A model generated the notes under the pieces. The model had not been told where the DNA came from and did not search any database. It saw nothing but the letters and a program-made list of their open reading frames with translations. Below, piece by piece: positions 2,060 to 12,901 of a stretch of 64,000 nucleotides of DNA. The stretch covers positions 14,627 to 78,626 of the forward strand of contig USNG01000001.1 of assembly GCA_900556025.1 (NCBI GenBank). Reading direction: 5' to 3'. Made by a program: the position numbers and the translations under genes. Every line of letters starts with the position of its first letter. Position 1 is the first letter of the stretch. This DNA is from an uncultured Mycoplasmatota bacterium. Its GTDB lineage: Bacteria; Bacillota_I; Bacilli_A; RF39; UBA660.

Positions 2060-2380
2060 ATTCTCTTCTCCAAAAGTATTATAACATAAAAATAAAATTA
2101 TGTTAACTTGTTTTTTATATTTTTATGTTAACTTATCAACATTATTTCAACAAAATTATGTTAACTTATCAACAAGTTGTTAACAAGTTAGGATTTTTAT
2201 GAAGTTGAAAATTGTTGGGATTGTTAATAACTAAAATTTTCTCTTATTTTTTACTAAAAAAGTTGTTTACAAATTGTTCTTAAATTGTTAATATAAATGT
2301 TAATAAATTTTTTTGATTTGACATTAATAAAAGTTGAATTATAATTTAATTAGAAACGTTATAGAAAGGACTGATTATTT
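2060..2380. other. oriC: Chromosomal origin oriC, upstream (dnaA-proximal) half
   Basis: AT-rich gap between divergent genes. DnaA-box-like 9-mers differing by one base from TTATCCACA: TTATCAACA at 2133-2141 and 2166-2174, and the reverse-strand form TGTTAATAA at 2222-2230 and 2298-2306. A 19-bp direct repeat, TTATGTTAACTTATCAACA, occupies 2123-2141 and 2156-2174 (33-bp period), with a third partial copy at 2098-2109. The AT-richest stretch abuts dnaA (about 2270-2345) and is a plausible unwinding element. A second cluster between dnaA and dnaN gives the two-part oriC typical of Bacillota. Gene context makes the call strong; unwinding position is inferred. Confidence 0.88.
2318..2345 (+). promoter_or_regulatory. 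dnaA promoter
   Basis: Sigma-A type promoter: -35 TTGACA at 2318-2323, 16-bp spacer, -10 TATAAT at 2340-2345, 35 bp before the dnaA start. It is embedded in the AT-rich part of oriC, just downstream of the TGTTAATAA box at 2298-2306, so DnaA autoregulation is plausible. Confidence 0.8.
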
Positions 2381-3775
2381 ATGAATTTAGATGAAATTTG
2401 GAATAATTTTTTAGTAAAAATCAAGTCTAAAGTATCTTTAATGTCCTTTAACTATATATTTAAGGATCTTAAATTATATTCGTATGAGAATAGTAAAGTT
2501 ATTATAGTTTTACCATCTAATGAATTATTACTTCAAAATATAACTAAAAACTATCATGATATTATAGAAGAAATAATGAATGATATAACTAATGATACTT
2601 GTGAAATTGAATATATATTTGATAAAGATGTTGATAAACTTCAGAAAAAGCAAGAAGCTAAGAAAATACCGACAATTGAAGAAAGTGATGCTGAATTAGA
2701 TAGTATTAAAAATTATAAATACATAAGTAATTTTAATTCTAAATATACTTTTGATACATTTGTTGTTGGTGAGTCAAATAAACTTGCTTATGGAACTGCA
2801 TTAGCTGTAGCACAAAATCCAGGTAAACTTTATAATCCTTATTTTATATATGCTAAAAGTGGTCTTGGAAAAACACATTTAATGCATGCTATTGGTAATT
2901 ATATAGTTGAACATTCAGATAAAAAGGTACTTTATATTACTGCTGAACAATTTACTAACGATTATAGAGCAATAATAAATGCTAAAAGTAAATATGATAA
3001 TAACGTGTCGTATTTAGAAGCTTTTAGAGATAAGTATAGAAATGTGGATGTATTAATGATTGATGATATTCAATTTTTAGAAAACGCAACTAAATCTCAA
3101 ATAGAATTTACTAATACATTTAATACATTATATGATAATGAAAAACAGATAATTATAGCATCTGATACATCAATAAACGATTATAAATACTTAGAAGATC
3201 GTTTAAAAACTAGATTTAGATGGGGATTAACTGAATCAATAAATCCACCAGAATTAGAATTAAAGAAAAATATAATTAAGAATAAAATAATGATTAATAA
3301 TTATGATTTAGATATTAATGAAGAAGTAATTGATTATATAGCTAGTAATTGTGGAAGTGATATTAGAAATCTTGAAGGAGCTGTTATTAGAATTGTGGCA
3401 TATAAAGCAGCATTTAATATTCCTGAAGTAACATTATCAATTGCACAAGATGCTTTACAAGAATTTACTGGAAAAGTTGTTTATAAAACAAATTCAGTAG
3501 GCAAAATCATTGATATAGTAAGTAAATACTACAATTTAGATTCAACTATATTAAAAGGAAAAATGAAGAAAAAGAATATAGCAGATGCTAGAAATGTGGC
3601 TATTTATCTTAGTACAATGATGACTGAAGAAAGTTTAGAACGTATAGGATTAGAGTTTGGAGGTAGAGATCATTCAACTATAATATATGCTAGAGATAAA
3701 ATTTCTCAAGAATTGAAAACAAATGCTAAGTTGAAAGAAGAAATAAAAATATTAAAAGAAAAAATTTGTGAATAA
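2381..3775 (+). CDS. dnaA: Chromosomal replication initiator DnaA
   Basis: DnaA binds oriC boxes, oligomerises with ATP and opens the duplex. Domain I occupies about residues 1-85, a short acidic linker follows, the AAA+ domain spans about 115-340 with Walker A GLGKTHL near 160-166 and Walker B VLMIDDIQF near 224-231, and the C-terminal DNA-binding domain carries the signature GGRDHSTIIYARDKI near 427-441. The length of 464 residues is normal for Bacillota. SD AAAGGA precedes the ATG. Followed by dnaN as usual. Confidence 0.98.
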   Translation: MNLDEIWNNFLVKIKSKVSLMSFNYIFKDLKLYSYENSKVIIVLPSNELLLQNITKNYHDIIEEIMNDITNDTCEIEYIFDKDVDKLQKKQEAKKIPTIEESDAELDSIKNYKYISNFNSKYTFDTFVVGESNKLAYGTALAVAQNPGKLYNPYFIYAKSGLGKTHLMHAIGNYIVEHSDKKVLYITAEQFTNDYRAIINAKSKYDNNVSYLEAFRDKYRNVDVLMIDDIQFLENATKSQIEFTNTFNTLYDNEKQIIIASDTSINDYKYLEDRLKTRFRWGLTESINPPELELKKNIIKNKIMINNYDLDINEEVIDYIASNCGSDIRNLEGAVIRIVAYKAAFNIPEVTLSIAQDALQEFTGKVVYKTNSVGKIIDIVSKYYNLDSTILKGKMKKKNIADARNVAIYLSTMMTEESLERIGLEFGGRDHSTIIYARDKISQELKTNAKLKEEIKILKEKICE

Positions 3776-3914
3776 GTTCTTAATTTATTAACAACTTAAC
3801 AACAATAAAATTTTAAAAAAGTAAGGTTTTATCTTATGATAAATGAGTTATCAACAAAATCAACAGTCTATAATAATATTAATTAACATAATAATAAGGA
3901 GGAAAGAAAAAATT
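3776..3914. promoter_or_regulatory. dnaA-dnaN intergenic region with DnaA boxes (oriC downstream half)
   Basis: Contains TTATTAACA at 3785-3793 and TTATCAACA at 3848-3856, the same 9-mer variants seen upstream of dnaA, followed by the strong dnaN SD AAGGAGG. This is the expected position of the second DnaA-box cluster in a bipartite origin. Confidence 0.7.
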
Positions 3915-8730: not shown

Positions 8731-11280
8731 ATGGATACTAATGAAAATGTTGATAATTCACAAGTTGTTAACAATGAAAATGATTTTTCTGGTAAATTTC
8801 ATGAGAGAGATAGTCACAATGTAAATAATATAGTAGATGAAGTTAAGAGTTCTTTCTTAGATTATTCAATGAGTGTTATAACTTCTCGTGCTATTCCAGA
8901 TTTAAGAGATGGTTTGAAACCGGTTCATAGAAGAATTCTTTGGTCTATGTATGAGGAAGGAAATACTCCTGATAAGCCTCACAGAAAATCAGCAACAACT
9001 GTTGGAAATGTTATGGGACATTATCATCCACATGGTGATAGTTCTATTTATGAAGCAATGGTTCGTTTAGCTCAAGATTTTAGCCAAAGATATATGTTGA
9101 TTGATGGACATGGAAACTTTGGTAATATAGAAGGTGATGGAGCTGCTGCTTACCGTTATACTGAAGCAAGATTAGCTAAGATTTCTCTTGAATTATTAAG
9201 AGATATCAATAAAGATACTGTTGATATGGATGATAACTTCGATGTTACTAGAAAGGAACCTAAAGTTTTACCTTCTAGATTTCCAAATATTTTGGTTAAT
9301 GGTTCAATGGGTATAGCAGTTGGTATGGCTACAAATATTCCTCCACATAATTTAAGAGAAGTTATTGATGGATGTATTGCTTATATTGATAATCCTGATA
9401 TAGATGTTCTTGGATTAATGAATTATATTAAAGGTCCTGATTTTCCAACAGGTGGTATAATTCTTGGAAATTCCGGTATTAAGAAGGCATATGAAACAGG
9501 TAGAGGAAGTATTACAATAAGAAGTAAGGCAACTATTGAAGAACATAATAATCATAATTGTATTGTTATTTCTGAAGTTCCATATGGTGTTAATACTATG
9601 GAGTTAAAGAATAAAGTTGCTGAATTGGTTCATACAAAGGTAATTGATGGAATATCTGATTATCATACTGATTTAAAAGATGGTGTTAAGATTACAATTA
9701 CTTTAAAGAAAGATGCTAATCCACAAGTTGTATTAAATAATCTATATAAACATACATCTTTCCAAATAAATTATGGAATTATATTCCTGATGTTAGATGG
9801 ATTAACTCCTAAAACACTTGGTTTAAAGGATATTATTTCAAAATATATTGATCATCAAAAAGTTATTATTATCAGAAGAACTAAATTTGATTTAGCTAAA
9901 GATGAAAAAAGAGTACATATTTTAAATGGATATAAGATAGCACAAGATAATATTGATGAAGTAATTAAAATTATTAAACAAGCTAAAAATGATGATGAAG
10001 CTAAGGCTAATTTAATGGAAAGATTTGGATTAGATTTAATTCAATCTGAAGCTATTTTAGAGCTAAAATTAAGAAGATTAACTGGTTTAGAAAGAAGTAA
10101 GATAGAAGAAGAGTTAGCAAGCTTATTAAAGGAAATAGAGGAGTTAAAAGCTATATTAGCTTCTGAACAAAAAGTATTAGAAATTATTAAAAATGAAATG
10201 TTAGAAATAAGAAATAAATATGGTGATGATAGAAGAACTGAGATTGATATGACTGCTGTTGAATATATTGAAGATGAGTCATTAATACCTCAAGAAGAAA
10301 TTATTGTTACTTTAACAAATAAGAATTATATTAAGAGAATTCCTAAGGATACTTATAAGGTGCAACATAGAGGTGGAGTTGGTATTAAGGGTATGACTAC
10401 TACTGATAATGACTTTGTTGAACAGTTAATTTCCTTAAATACTCATGATGATATATTATTCTTCACAAATAAAGGTAAGGTTTATAGATTAAAAGGATAT
10501 AAGATTCCAGAGTATTCTAGAACTGCTAAAGGTCTTCCAATTGTTAATTTATTGCAATTAGAGAAGGATGAAAAGATAAAAACTGTTATTAAAATATCTA
10601 ATAAAGAAGATTTTACAAACAAATGTTTGTTATTTACAACTAAAAATGGATTAATTAAGAGAACTGCTATTGCAGAATTTGAAAATATTAGACAAACAGG
10701 TAAAATTGCTATTACTTTAAAAGATGATGATGAACTTATTTCAGTAAAAATGACATCAGGTAATGATCAAGTTCTTATATGTTCTTCTAAGGGAAGAATG
10801 GCTAGATTTAACGAGAATGAAATCAGAATAATGGGTAGAACAGCTTCTGGTGTTAGGGGAATAAATTTAACAGATGATATATGTGTTGGAGCTGAAATTT
10901 CTGAATTAGGAAAATCATTATTAGTTGTTACTGAAAACGGATATGGTAAAAAGACTGCTATTGAAGAATATAGAGAAACTAAGCGTGGTAGTAAGGGAGT
11001 TAAAACTCTTAATATTACAGAAAAGAACGGTAAGGTAGTAGGCTTCAAATCTACTGATGATAATAAAGATTTAATGATAATTACAAATGATGGTGTTATT
11101 ATAAGAATGGATGTTAAATCTATTTCAACAATGGGTAGAGTTACTAAAGGCGTTAGACTTATAAATTTAAAAGATAATAATAAGGTTGCTTCAATATCTA
11201 TTCTTGAAAAGGAATTAGAAGAGGAAAATGATTTTTCAACAATTGAAAGTGTAGAACCAGTCAATGAAGAGAATGAGTAA
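8731..11280 (+). CDS. gyrA: DNA gyrase subunit A
   Basis: DNA-cleaving subunit of gyrase. The catalytic Tyr is in AAAYRYTEARL near residue 146. The quinolone-resistance region reads GDSSIYEAMVRLAQ with Ser and Glu at the usual resistance positions, so it looks wild type. A coiled-coil arm follows and then C-terminal beta-pinwheel blades, including the GyrA-box-like QHRGGVG near 545. The N-terminus carries about 35 extra Asn/Asp-rich residues before VKSSFLDYSMSVI. SD GGAGG; last gene of the origin operon, ending in a terminator. Confidence 0.98.
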   Translation: MDTNENVDNSQVVNNENDFSGKFHERDSHNVNNIVDEVKSSFLDYSMSVITSRAIPDLRDGLKPVHRRILWSMYEEGNTPDKPHRKSATTVGNVMGHYHPHGDSSIYEAMVRLAQDFSQRYMLIDGHGNFGNIEGDGAAAYRYTEARLAKISLELLRDINKDTVDMDDNFDVTRKEPKVLPSRFPNILVNGSMGIAVGMATNIPPHNLREVIDGCIAYIDNPDIDVLGLMNYIKGPDFPTGGIILGNSGIKKAYETGRGSITIRSKATIEEHNNHNCIVISEVPYGVNTMELKNKVAELVHTKVIDGISDYHTDLKDGVKITITLKKDANPQVVLNNLYKHTSFQINYGIIFLMLDGLTPKTLGLKDIISKYIDHQKVIIIRRTKFDLAKDEKRVHILNGYKIAQDNIDEVIKIIKQAKNDDEAKANLMERFGLDLIQSEAILELKLRRLTGLERSKIEEELASLLKEIEELKAILASEQKVLEIIKNEMLEIRNKYGDDRRTEIDMTAVEYIEDESLIPQEEIIVTLTNKNYIKRIPKDTYKVQHRGGVGIKGMTTTDNDFVEQLISLNTHDDILFFTNKGKVYRLKGYKIPEYSRTAKGLPIVNLLQLEKDEKIKTVIKISNKEDFTNKCLLFTTKNGLIKRTAIAEFENIRQTGKIAITLKDDDELISVKMTSGNDQVLICSSKGRMARFNENEIRIMGRTASGVRGINLTDDICVGAEISELGKSLLVVTENGYGKKTAIEEYRETKRGSKGVKTLNITEKNGKVVGFKSTDDNKDLMIITNDGVIIRMDVKSISTMGRVTKGVRLINLKDNNKVASISILEKELEEENDFSTIESVEPVNEENE

Positions 11281-11302: not shown

Positions 11303-11318
11303 TGTTCCACGTGAAACA
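11303..11318 (+). promoter_or_regulatory. parS site 1
   Basis: TGTTCCACGTGAAACA. The only copy without an adjoining DnaA-box-like 9-mer; instead a Noc-type palindrome begins 2 bp downstream. Confidence 0.9.
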
Positions 11319-11320
11319 AT

Positions 11321-11336
11321 TATTTCCCGGGAAATA
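11321..11336. promoter_or_regulatory. Noc-binding-type palindrome 1
   Basis: TATTTCCCGGGAAATA, a perfect 16-bp palindrome identical to the B. subtilis Noc binding site (core ATTTCCCGGGAAAT). Noc is the ParB paralogue that blocks division over the nucleoid. Identity is by motif; noc itself is not in the window. Confidence 0.82.
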
Positions 11337-11352
11337 AAAAATGTTTAAAAAA

Positions 11353-11368
11353 TATTTCCCGGGAAATA
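11353..11368. promoter_or_regulatory. Noc-binding-type palindrome 2
   Basis: Second exact copy of TATTTCCCGGGAAATA, 16 bp after the first and 8 bp before parS site 2. Confidence 0.82.
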
Positions 11369-11376
11369 TTTTTGTA

Positions 11377-11404
11377 TGTTCCACGTGAAACATATTGTGG
11401 ATAA
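11377..11404 (+). promoter_or_regulatory. parS site 2 plus DnaA box
   Basis: TGTTCCACGTGAAACA (11377-11392), 3-bp spacer, TGTGGATAA (11396-11404), which is the exact reverse complement of the consensus DnaA box TTATCCACA. Confidence 0.9.
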
Positions 11405-11565
11405 ATATTATTAAAGATACCCAATATATAATAATATTAATTTGATTGTTATATTCTTTTATAATTTAATTTTTTGTTTTTACTTTCTAAGAAGTGATTT
11501 CTTCCTTTAATCACGGTAATTTGTATATTTTTTATATACTATTTTAAAATATGTATTTATTTGTA

Positions 11566-11593
11566 TGTTCCACGTGAAACATATTGTTAATAA
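11566..11593 (+). promoter_or_regulatory. parS site 3 plus DnaA-box-like 9-mer
   Basis: TGTTCCACGTGAAACA (11566-11581), 3-bp spacer, TGTTAATAA (11585-11593), the same 9-mer found twice in oriC. Confidence 0.88.
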
Positions 11594-11684
11594 CTCACAT
11601 TTAATCTATATTTATAATTATATAATTTTAATTTAATAGGTTAGTATATTTATTTTATAGATAGTTTCTAATATTTTTATTAAA

Positions 11685-11710
11685 TGTTTCACGTGGAACA
11701 TTGTTGAAAA
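11685..11710 (-). promoter_or_regulatory. parS site 4 (inverted) plus degenerate DnaA-box-like 9-mer
   Basis: TGTTTCACGTGGAACA (11685-11700), 1-bp spacer, TGTTGAAAA (11702-11710), one base off TGTTGATAA. The parS orientation is flipped but the 9-mer stays on the same side. Confidence 0.85.
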
Positions 11711-11797
11711 CTTATATTTTATAATATTATATTTTATTAATGTATACAAATATTTTCATTATTGTTGTTTTAATTAATAATAATCTTTTTTTACCGA

Positions 11798-11824
11798 TGT
11801 TCCACGTGAAACATGTGTGGATAA
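11798..11824 (+). promoter_or_regulatory. parS site 5 plus DnaA box
   Basis: TGTTCCACGTGAAACA (11798-11813), 2-bp spacer, TGTGGATAA (11816-11824), a perfect consensus DnaA box on the minus strand. Confidence 0.9.
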
Positions 11825-11915
11825 ATAGTTAAAACGAGTTAAATTTTAAGAAAATCATTAATATTTAATTTAAATTTATTATTTTTAGTTTGTATTCTTT
11901 ATTTAATATTCTATA

Positions 11916-11943
11916 TGTTTCACGTGGAACATACTGTTGATAA
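11916..11943 (-). promoter_or_regulatory. parS site 6 (inverted) plus DnaA-box-like 9-mer
   Basis: TGTTTCACGTGGAACA (11916-11931), 3-bp spacer, TGTTGATAA (11935-11943), reverse complement of the TTATCAACA boxes of oriC. Confidence 0.88.
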
Positions 11944-12063
11944 GTTTTAATATGAGTATAAATTCCCCTAATTATTTTAATTTTAGCTTTTAAATATTTG
12001 TTTATTCCAGTAATTTCGGCGTTTTTTATTATTTTTTTAAAGATTTTTTATAATTATATTTAA

Positions 12064-12091
12064 TGTTCCACGTGAAACATGATGTTAATAA
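12064..12091 (+). promoter_or_regulatory. parS site 7 plus DnaA-box-like 9-mer
   Basis: TGTTCCACGTGAAACA (12064-12079), 3-bp spacer, TGTTAATAA (12083-12091). Confidence 0.88.
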
Positions 12092-12159
12092 CTTTTAAAA
12101 AAAATATAGTTTATTTTATTAAAAAAATGTTAAATATTATATTCAACAACAGTTTTTTA

Positions 12160-12186
12160 TGTTTCACGTGGAACATTTGTAAATAA
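12160..12186 (-). promoter_or_regulatory. parS site 8 (inverted) plus DnaA-box-like 9-mer
   Basis: TGTTTCACGTGGAACA (12160-12175), 2-bp spacer, TGTAAATAA (12178-12186). Confidence 0.86.
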
Positions 12187-12306
12187 GTTGCGTTTATTAG
12201 TTATTTTTAATTCAAATCGAGATGATATATTATATGTTATTTCATTTCTCGATGTATTTTAGAAATCATTGATGTATTTTATAAAATAGAGAGTGTTAAT
12301 TGTTAA

Positions 12307-12332
12307 TGTTTCACGTGGAACATTGTTGATAA
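12307..12332 (-). promoter_or_regulatory. parS site 9 (inverted) plus DnaA-box-like 9-mer
   Basis: TGTTTCACGTGGAACA (12307-12322), 1-bp spacer, TGTTGATAA (12324-12332). Last copy before the SRP RNA promoter. Confidence 0.88.
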
Positions 12333-12377: not shown

Positions 12378-12406
12378 TTGATTTTGTGTTCATTTTGTTG
12401 TAAAAT
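12378..12406 (+). promoter_or_regulatory. Promoter of the SRP RNA
   Basis: -35 TTGATT at 12378-12383, 17-bp spacer, -10 TAAAAT at 12401-12406, seven bases before the predicted RNA 5' end. Confidence 0.75.
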
Positions 12407-12412
12407 TTACTT

Positions 12413-12488
12413 GTGCAACAATATGCGCATGAACCAGGTCAGAATTGGAAGATAGCAGCCTTAAGTGTAATTATTGTGTGCACTTTTT
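12413..12488 (+). ncRNA. ffs: Signal recognition particle RNA, small (4.5S-type)
   Basis: RNA scaffold of the signal recognition particle, bound by Ffh. The domain IV core GAACCAGGTCAGAATTGGAAG is followed by ATAGCAGCC. The GGAA tetraloop and the CAG/AGCAG internal loop are kept, while the three-base apical stem is AUU/GAU rather than the common UCC/GGA, a compensated change. The ends pair (GTGCA 12413-12417 with TGCAC 12479-12483) and run into a T-tract terminator. The promoter position implies about 76 nt, without the Alu domain found in the Bacillus 270-nt RNA. It lies near tadA and dnaX as scr does in Bacillus. Confidence 0.92.
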
Positions 12489-12502
12489 TAATGGTGTAAA
12501 AA

Positions 12503-12901
12503 ATGATAGAAGAAATGTTAAAAAAATTAAATTTAATGGCAATAAAGCATGGTGATGTACCAGTTTCTTGTATAATTGTGAAAAATGATAGAATTATTGC
12601 GTCTTCTTATAACAAAAAGAAGAAAAATAATGATCCTTTTGCTCATGCTGAGATTTTAGCTATAAGAAAGGCGTGTAAGAGACTTAAAACTAATAATTTG
12701 TCTGATTGTAAATTATATGTATCTTTAATGCCATGTAATATGTGCAAAGATGTTATAAATGAGGCTAGAATAAAGGAAGTATATTATATTTTGGATAGTG
12801 AAAAAGTTGTTAATAATACAACTAAATTTGTTAAATTTTCTACAAGTTATCAACAATATTTTGAAAATGAGCTTAAAAATTTTTTTAGTGATAAAAGGTA
12901 G
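12503..12901 (+). CDS. tadA: tRNA adenosine(34) deaminase TadA
   Basis: Converts A34 to inosine in tRNA-Arg(ACG). The zinc deaminase motifs are HAEILAI near residue 49 and PCNMC near 77. The product is 132 residues, shorter than the usual 150-160, with the trimming mainly at the C-terminus. The SD is weak (GGTG). Context next to SRP RNA and dnaX matches Bacillus yaaJ-scr-dnaX, which separates it from guanine or cytidine deaminases of the same fold. Confidence 0.88.
   Translation: MIEEMLKKLNLMAIKHGDVPVSCIIVKNDRIIASSYNKKKKNNDPFAHAEILAIRKACKRLKTNNLSDCKLYVSLMPCNMCKDVINEARIKEVYYILDSEKVVNNTTKFVKFSTSYQQYFENELKNFFSDKR

Follow-up and report, generated by a model that had tools for sequence, protein, structure and literature searches.

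Predicted DnaA boxes adjoin parS sites between gyrA and tadA in an uncultured Bacilli bacterium and in a minority of its relatives

INTRODUCTION

How bacteria link the start of replication to chromosome segregation is an open question. For Bacillus subtilis, the model given in the reviews consulted places the link in a contact between two proteins, Soj and DnaA, and not in DNA. Initiator sites at centromeres are already known. In Caulobacter, a DnaA site within parS is reported to be needed for partitioning at low DnaA (PMC4468827, PMC6399470), and at rctA/parS2 of Vibrio cholerae chromosome II, the same articles describe ParB2 as counteracting the sequestration of RctB.

Here we describe a group of parS sites from an uncultured Mycoplasmatota bacterium in which predicted DnaA boxes lie within a few base pairs of parS. 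What is new in this arrangement is one box per inner parS, the short spacing, the occurrence of boxes on either side of parS and the host group, Bacilli. We found no report of parS-DnaA box pairing in Bacilli in the portions of the open-licence literature that were available. A set of sequenced species of uncultured gut bacteria appears here to encode the link between replication and segregation in cis, related species without boxes alongside them amount to a natural comparative experiment, and the array supplies short, defined DNA sites for work on DnaA and ParB.

RESULTS

Nine parS sites and eight box-like 9-mers in one interval

The window, by which we mean the whole stretch of 64,000 nucleotides that was analyzed, begins within the oriC region of a chromosome that is AT-rich and of Bacilli type. 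Its genes, named from sequence and gene order with no family search, run dnaA (2381..3775, plus strand; domain IV GGRDHST), dnaN, recF, gyrB, gyrA (8731..11280, plus strand), 1.1 kb without a plausible gene, a bacterial small signal recognition particle (SRP) RNA gene (12402..12499, plus strand; a match to RF00169) and tadA (12503..12901, plus strand), and tblastn finds the same order kept in relatives. We take the frames at 8731..11280 and 12503..12901 to be gyrA and tadA, respectively. The former is the left border of the parS array in the window and in relatives, the SRP RNA gene, absent from the first-pass annotation of this DNA, is the right border, and tadA is the right flanking protein gene. 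oriC was assigned by its place beside dnaA and the presence of boxes. Its first part, upstream of dnaA (2133..2306), has two copies each of TTATCAACA and TTATTAACA, and its second, between dnaA and dnaN (3767..3856), has TTATTCACA, TTATTAACA and TTATCAACA. These oriC-side boxes (2133-3856) lie about 9 kb from the parS array. Elsewhere in the window, a PGK RNA match (RF03040; 54635-54728) scores above the gathering score.

Nine parS sites, spanning 11303-12322, lie in the interval between gyrA and the SRP RNA gene and tadA, where chance would give 0.25 per window. The first-pass annotation had the count right, but its range of one gene-free kilobase left out the first site, at 11303. All of them differ from TGTTTCACGTGAAACA by exactly one mismatch, with TGTTCCACGTGAAACA present five times and TGTTTCACGTGGAACA four times, the same five-to-four split of orientations as first described. 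The outermost site on the gyrA side, parS 1 (11303..11318), has no DnaA box. Next to it are two exact copies of the palindrome ATTTCCCGGGAAAT (11322..11335 and 11354..11367), presumably binding sites for Noc, which had been overlooked; 0.12 such sites are expected even with up to two mismatches.

Each of the eight other parS sites, located by the same search, has a DnaA-box-like 9-mer on its right, on the minus strand, at spacers of 3, 3, 1, 2, 3, 3, 2 and 1 bp in order. Read left to right, the 9-mers are TGTGGATAA, TGTTAATAA, TGTTGAAAA, TGTGGATAA, TGTTGATAA, TGTTAATAA, TGTAAATAA and TGTTGATAA. Named in box orientation, parS 2 (11377..11392) is followed by TTATCCACA (11396..11404), parS 3 (11566..11581) by TTATTAACA (11585..11593), parS 4 (11685..11700) by the degenerate TTTTCAACA (11702..11710), parS 5 (11798..11813) by TTATCCACA (11816..11824), parS 6 (11916..11931) by TTATCAACA (11935..11943), parS 7 (12064..12079) by TTATTAACA (12083..12091), parS 8 (12160..12175) by the predicted box variant TTATTTACA (12178..12186) and parS 9 (12307..12322) by TTATCAACA (12324..12332). 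TTATTAACA and TTATCAACA belong to the box repertoire of oriC. On the tadA side the outermost site is parS 9, which carries a box, whereas in most boxed relatives the parS at this end has none.

Seven of the eight 9-mers fit the strict motif TGTDRATAA; the one at 11702 is one base off this motif and two mismatches from TTATNCACA. The 9-mers at 11396 and 11816 are exact minus-strand copies of the consensus TTATCCACA, and with two of eight boxes exact, the array as a whole does not conform to the strict TTATNCACA consensus. The eight TGTNRATAA-like 9-mers at 1 to 3 bp, the two exact ones among them, and their constant side and strand were all claims of the first-pass annotation that hold within the window. 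So does the lack of relationship among the intervening sequences, with a mean pair identity of 0.42 upstream and 0.41 downstream of the parS units. The locus carries several consensus parS near oriC, as in a chromosomal ParABS centromere, and, at the level of sequence, predicted DnaA sites beside parS, as in a Caulobacter-type centromere. It also has several predicted DnaA boxes clustered outside oriC (eight in 1 kb here; one to three in many relatives).

When parS was held fixed and the DNA between the sites was dinucleotide-shuffled 20,000 times (spacers 0-3), the shuffles reached at most 2 strict 9-mers on either side and at most 5 with one mismatch on the right. The observed numbers were 7 and 8, respectively, on the right, with 0 strict on the left. 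Window-wide, box-like 9-mers (one mismatch allowed) were not enriched (128 found versus 139 expected), so the unusual part is their placement next to parS.

Occurrence in related genomes

An exact-pattern scan of GTDB genome contigs gave 114 stretches. In 73 of these, the match adjoins gyrA, tadA or both; they represent about 71 genomes, since L045 and L054 come from one genome, as do L068 and L114. These 73 are catalogued mostly under uncultured Bacilli, Tenericutes, Mycoplasma or Erysipelotrichaceae. In 71 of them the gyrA-tadA interval contains one box or more, and in L028 and L080 the match is just past tadA. The other 41 loci had no gyrA or tadA match, and since a rough estimate puts chance matches in the tens, we do not claim general occurrence across bacteria. 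Eleven Bacteroidota records from Rufibacter, Adhaeribacter and Sabulibacter (L003, L007, L013, L035, L044, L056, L060, L061, L066, L079 and L104) have one exact parS-box composite each, without a gyrA or tadA match, and are possibly an independent conserved site.

In the order that includes the nearest relative (L062, G001), 39 of 385 sampled genomes carry one or more strict composites, and a reversed control pattern matched in 0 of the 385. All 15 genomes in this sample with two or more composites have them on one strand. At the level of the class, 8 of 395 genomes have a composite, all eight already in the order sample, and none was found in any of the 341 class-sample genomes from outside it. 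When 14 boxed genomes were searched whole for TGTTNCACGTGNAACA, 13 had all of their sites (3 to 8) in one cluster; for the 14th (G012), 3 of 6 sites are among the matches listed.

The base rate comes from 98 genomes sampled at the level of the family, 91 of them with a TadA match, from which 30 short loci and 40 regions were taken by TadA similarity and size of contig. Removal of duplicates and incomplete loci left 36 unique loci that contain the interval from end to end. At least one parS lies in the interval in 34 of these 36, and a box at spacer 1-5 in 5. In the family, a parS cluster between gyrA and tadA is the norm, whereas only a minority of loci have boxes; as most relatives' arrays are unboxed, boxes are not needed for centromere function in general. 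Loss of the 9-mers in close relatives, which the first-pass annotation had set against its own proposal, is partly seen in the nearest rows of the GyrA tree. In L145, the nearest row to the window (77% identical), two of three parS are boxed, but on the opposite side; the parS of L146 lack boxes; and the locus in L148 is devoid of parS.

A different kind of array is seen in L151 (same genome as L124), where ten parS lie head to tail, 37 to 38 bp apart, as a near-perfect tandem satellite. The gyrA-tadA interval there holds one loose box-like word only.

Spacing between parS and the 9-mer

Spacing and order were counted in loci with both gyrA and tadA ends (128, 92 unique), which places some large arrays, such as L005, L010 and L014, outside these counts. 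Expected numbers were derived from those parts of the same interval that lie over 30 nt away from parS. Among 59 unique scan loci with 300 parS, each chosen for at least one composite so that one box per locus is present by selection, spacers 1-5 hold 114 boxes versus 2.7 expected, and spacers 6-39 hold 12 versus 18.3 expected. Spacer 5 holds 8 boxes though it lies outside the scan pattern. In the 36 loci sampled without regard to boxes (141 parS), there are 8 boxes at spacers 1-5 versus 0.77 expected, or 3 versus 0.66 when three loci shared with the scan are left out. Together with the 20,000 shuffles, these counts rule out chance in AT-rich DNA. As a separate observation, the interval in L182 has eight parS, two of them with TGTGAATAA at spacer 9 and several with degenerate versions; these words are perhaps boxes further out, or eroding ones.

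The spacing bears on whether the cluster serves to titrate DnaA, soaking it up near oriC and delaying initiation, with parS adjacent because both profit from early duplication. Up to eight boxes per 1 kb, 9 kb from oriC, would suit this role, as would the higher density of box-like words away from parS in the interval than in the rest of the loci (0.00090 versus 0.00032 per strand-position), a difference that composition alone may explain, the rest being mostly genes. There is precedent in B. subtilis, where six clusters lie outside oriC and their joint removal is reported to advance initiation (PMC5295017). However, titration needs no boxes at 1 to 5 bp, one per parS and on one side; past 5 bp, boxes drop to the interval background, and many arrays hold only one to three. 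Given the tight spacing, titration alone is insufficient, and we regard it as an unlikely account of the array.

The 9-mers are very probably DnaA boxes

It is very likely that the 9-mers beside parS are DnaA boxes, because they are mostly variants enriched in the oriC regions of the same genomes, including TTACTAACA. We compared box repertoires in the 40 boxed loci that contain dnaA and dnaN, of 62 loci with both genes, as counts in oriC, beside parS and in the background, respectively. These were 105, 40 and 120 for TTATCAACA; 60, 19 and 107 for TTATTAACA; 79, 12 and 23 for TTATCCACA; and 31, 10 and 54 for TTACTAACA. Per base, these four variants are 7- to 44-fold enriched in oriC. The exception is TTACCAACA (4, 6 and 45), which at 1.1-fold is not enriched. 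The motif used at parS excluded TTATAAACA and TTATACACA, whose zero count in arrays is by construction. Over these loci and the oriC of the window, the proposal that the remaining 9-mers share their variants with an oriC about 9 kb away is mostly correct. In the oriC regions of these genomes, 122 of the 459 box-family words listed, chance words included, are strict.

The bases 5' of the box lean alike in oriC and array, with C at -4 at a frequency of 0.29 in arrays and 0.27 in oriC versus 0.07 in a background that is mostly coding DNA. Genome by genome, TTAC-type boxes show at best a weak correlation between their use in oriC and their use in the array (r, 0.27 over 37 genomes, with a shuffle P of 0.06 and a Spearman P of 0.31). 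A reading of the 9-mer as an extended -10 promoter was set aside on inspection by eye.

Could the resemblance to a DnaA box be superficial, with the 9-mer bound by some other protein or serving as an accessory contact for ParB? The array motif does extend further than that of oriC, with A at -2 at 0.88 and G at -1 at 0.51 versus 0.62 and 0.29, and TTACCAACA occurs in arrays without enrichment in oriC. Against this stand the array variants themselves, which are mostly the oriC-enriched ones down to TTACTAACA, with TTATCCACA the exact consensus; and since most relatives have parS without the 9-mer, it is not a general ParB contact. We consider this alternative very unlikely.

Some genomes differ in their boxes or in DnaA. 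All nine parS of the L163 array read TGTTACACGTGTAACA; two adjoin TTACTAACA and a third TTATACACA, and the oriC of L163 has six copies of TTACTAACA. Domain IV of DnaA reads GGRDHST in 42 of 44 readable loci, GGRDHTT in L184 and GGRDHAT in L162. The change in domain IV may go with relaxed TTATYAACA boxes.

Conservation, side and order within arrays

Site by site, we compared 23 array pairs of equal parS number, chosen from the GyrA tree and read both ways. The pairs are not independent, since clades repeat, and among them 96 of 113 site comparisons keep the box as a motif. Identity of the box 9-mer is 0.88 versus 0.68 for the mirror 9-mer, which flanks the same parS opposite the box, and in seven-parS arrays such as L005/L010 the values are 0.92 versus 0.58. 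Against this trend, L099/L107 show no difference and L057/L040 the reverse, and L103/L037 are too close to tell. Global alignments of whole arrays in 30 chosen pairs, with one genome entered twice (L043 and L174), gave pooled identities of 0.88 for parS, 0.81 for boxes and 0.69 for the rest; in 6 of the 30, boxes were less conserved than the rest. Because unrelated AT-rich DNA aligns at about 0.6 to 0.7, we rely instead on the mirror-side comparison. The pairing of parS and box looks selected rather than accidental, since the spacing is tight and the boxes persist while the mirror 9-mers do not.

Boxes within an array share a side. Among arrays with at least two strict boxes, 32 of 32 are one-sided, and with a looser motif 34 of 37 are. 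When one mismatch and spacers to 8 are allowed, 32 of 74 arrays have boxes on the right only and 32 on the left only, while 8 are mixed and 2 have none. With either side equally common, a fixed direction relative to oriC was rejected, as was a one-way ParB roadblock that would need it. The GyrA tree (92 rows from a quick search; of 89 inner branches, 25 are weak) requires a minimum of 8 changes between right- and left-boxed states, or 19 when unboxed is counted as a state. The window, boxed on the right, already differs from its nearest row, L145, boxed on the left.

The order of plain and boxed parS was counted in arrays holding four or more parS and two or more boxes; these arrays share ancestry, so that the counts are not independent. 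Boxes are present at 1 of 32 parS at the gyrA end and 6 of 32 at the tadA end (7 of 64 outer sites pooled), versus 91 of 125 inner sites. Right-type arrays (gyrA end, 0/12; tadA end, 1/12; inner, 44/68) and left-type arrays (1/20, 5/20 and 47/57, respectively) agree in this, and a stricter parS definition gives 3/30, 7/30 and 82/104. The window follows the pattern at the gyrA end only and is the sole right-type array with a boxed tadA end.

The first-pass annotation had argued from the flipped parS half-sites that the pairing is not a by-product of block duplication. This argument is weak: parS is a near-palindrome, many relatives carry TGTTTCACGTGAAACA, and a single mutation in either half of it gives one or the other "orientation." Internal duplication would be expected to produce boxes on one side and outer parS that mostly lack them, and the order has a simple explanation if inner units were duplicated between outer parS that stayed fixed. 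Recent block copies are visible in L034 and L106. Unit flanks in 14 arrays have a mean identity of 0.42 to 0.44, which makes most duplications old; only flanks were used from that comparison, since the within-array box identity of 0.91 is inflated by the motif that defines the box.

These observations also suit a neutral history, in which a parS that chanced to adjoin a DnaA-like word was amplified and the pairing is unselected. The one-sidedness, the plain outer parS, the block copies and the tandem 37- to 38-bp parS units of L151 are all in its favor. However, boxes persist between orthologous arrays while mirror 9-mers fall to noise in most pairs, the flanks of the units have a mean identity of only 0.42 to 0.44, and the changes of side on the GyrA tree suggest repeated gain. 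A purely neutral origin is therefore highly improbable in our estimate, and the way in which plain and boxed parS are ordered points to amplification within the array combined with selection.

ParA, ParB and Noc-type proteins

All 14 boxed genomes examined encode a ParB of about 300 amino acids with a KSR helix and an adjoining ParA-like ATPase, that is, a parA-parB operon with a parS-type ParB helix. ParA, ParB and Noc were not found in the 64-kb window by tblastn with relatives' proteins, with gyrA as the positive control. The second specificity position of the 14 helices, mapped by eye, is G or S. Serine replaces this glycine (SMSHAR instead of SMGHAR, mapped by eye) in the ParB of 7 of the 14 (L186 to L189, L191, L194 and L197); the glycine is reported to be conserved in all ParB (PMC7383237).

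Each of the same 14 genomes encodes a second ParB-family protein in an open frame of 372 to 474 amino acids. The six that were read have SQ and SERHAR and are Noc-type, with the Q and R specificity residues described for Noc (PMC7383237). The Noc-site core occurs 56 times in 94 kb of gyrA-tadA interval versus 47 times in 585 kb elsewhere in the loci, and it is present in the interval in 31 of 92 unique loci. A single hub thus appears to serve both the Noc and the ParB system, and the interval brings together sites of ParB, Noc and probably DnaA. Noc of Staphylococcus aureus is reported to restrain replication initiation as well (PMC5540599).

With these partners, control could run from the centromere to the initiator: ParB would displace or remodel adjacent DnaA, or Soj would act on DnaA there, and initiation would sense the centromere. 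At spacers of 1 to 5 bp overlapping footprints are to be expected, ParA adjoins ParB in the 14 boxed genomes, and the behavior of ParB2 at rctA/parS2 is of this kind (PMC6399470, PMC4468827). In B. subtilis, however, control of DnaA by the ParA protein Soj is reported to be independent of parS location (PMC7614844), which makes a purely replication-side role less likely. We judge this alternative to be quite unlikely.

DISCUSSION

Our results suggest that this arrangement may tie chromosome copying to chromosome moving. The explanation we prefer, although we would not quite call it probable, is a centromere with built-in DnaA sites at which DnaA modulates the loading or release of ParB at inner parS. 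The sequences themselves establish how the arrays are built, that they recur, how closely and on which side the boxes are set, that the boxes resemble those of oriC and that they are conserved; we infer the occupancy by DnaA and ParB, the interaction of the two and the direction of control. The gyrA-tadA interval would be the ParB-loading centromere of the chromosome. Fusion of inner parS to a box would seat DnaA 1 to 5 bp from a ParB nucleation site, presumably against or within the nucleation footprint, where bound DnaA would contact or crowd the ParB dimer that loads at parS and starts to slide. Loading or release of ParB could then come to depend on the state of DnaA, and with it segregation driven by ParA/Soj and the loading of SMC. 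Outer, unboxed parS would load ParB freely outwards. Arrays would grow by duplication of inner units, selection keeping parS and box while the rest drifts.

In vitro, a DNA-bound protein (TetR) beside parS is reported to attenuate the accumulation of Caulobacter ParB to one side (PMC7053999). The report that B. subtilis ParB can bypass roadblocks in vitro (PMC9242446) counts against the preferred explanation, as do the minority occurrence of composites (39/385), the unconserved side and the two exact boxes of eight. We are more doubtful of a DnaA-gated centromere, in which each inner parS would be a joint loading site for ParB and DnaA, with initiator occupancy deciding whether a ParB clamp can load or slide off, while outer, unboxed parS stay open to the chromosome. 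If true, replication and segregation would be joined by a switch encoded in cis, one with at least eight origins or changes of side within a single group of Bacilli and with convergent counterparts in Caulobacter and on V. cholerae chromosome II.

Among the closest described systems is that of Caulobacter crescentus, where DnaA is reported to bind at parS near oriC and to drive partitioning through a site within parS (Mera et al. 2014, as cited in PMC6399470 and PMC4468827). Unlike in Caulobacter, the arrays described here, as known from their sequence, have several parS and one box per inner parS at 1 to 5 bp, the side of the box flips between lineages, and the host is a member of the Bacilli with ParA, ParB and Noc-type proteins. 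Initiator and ParB sites are also described side by side at rctA/parS2 of V. cholerae chromosome II (PMC6399470, PMC4468827), but RctB is unrelated to DnaA and that replicon is secondary, whereas the present array lies on a chromosome with dnaA and its own oriC. The cisII and cisMP repeat arrays of Deinococcus radiodurans, which are reported to bind both DnaA and ParB (PMC7671480), are described as origins of secondary replicons with iterons of their own; here, canonical parS lie 9 kb from an ordinary oriC.

The oriC-proximal DnaA-box clusters of B. subtilis (PMC5295017) are likewise outside oriC. Here, in contrast, each box is placed relative to a parS, an element that goes without mention in the available part of that report. 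Finally, the locus resembles other ParABS chromosomes as described (PMC7022226, PMC6399470) in its consensus parS near oriC and its ParA-ParB operon. It differs from them in that, among the boxed genomes listed, exact parS are gathered in one gyrA-tadA intergenic region together with predicted DnaA boxes, often with Noc sites mixed in among the parS.
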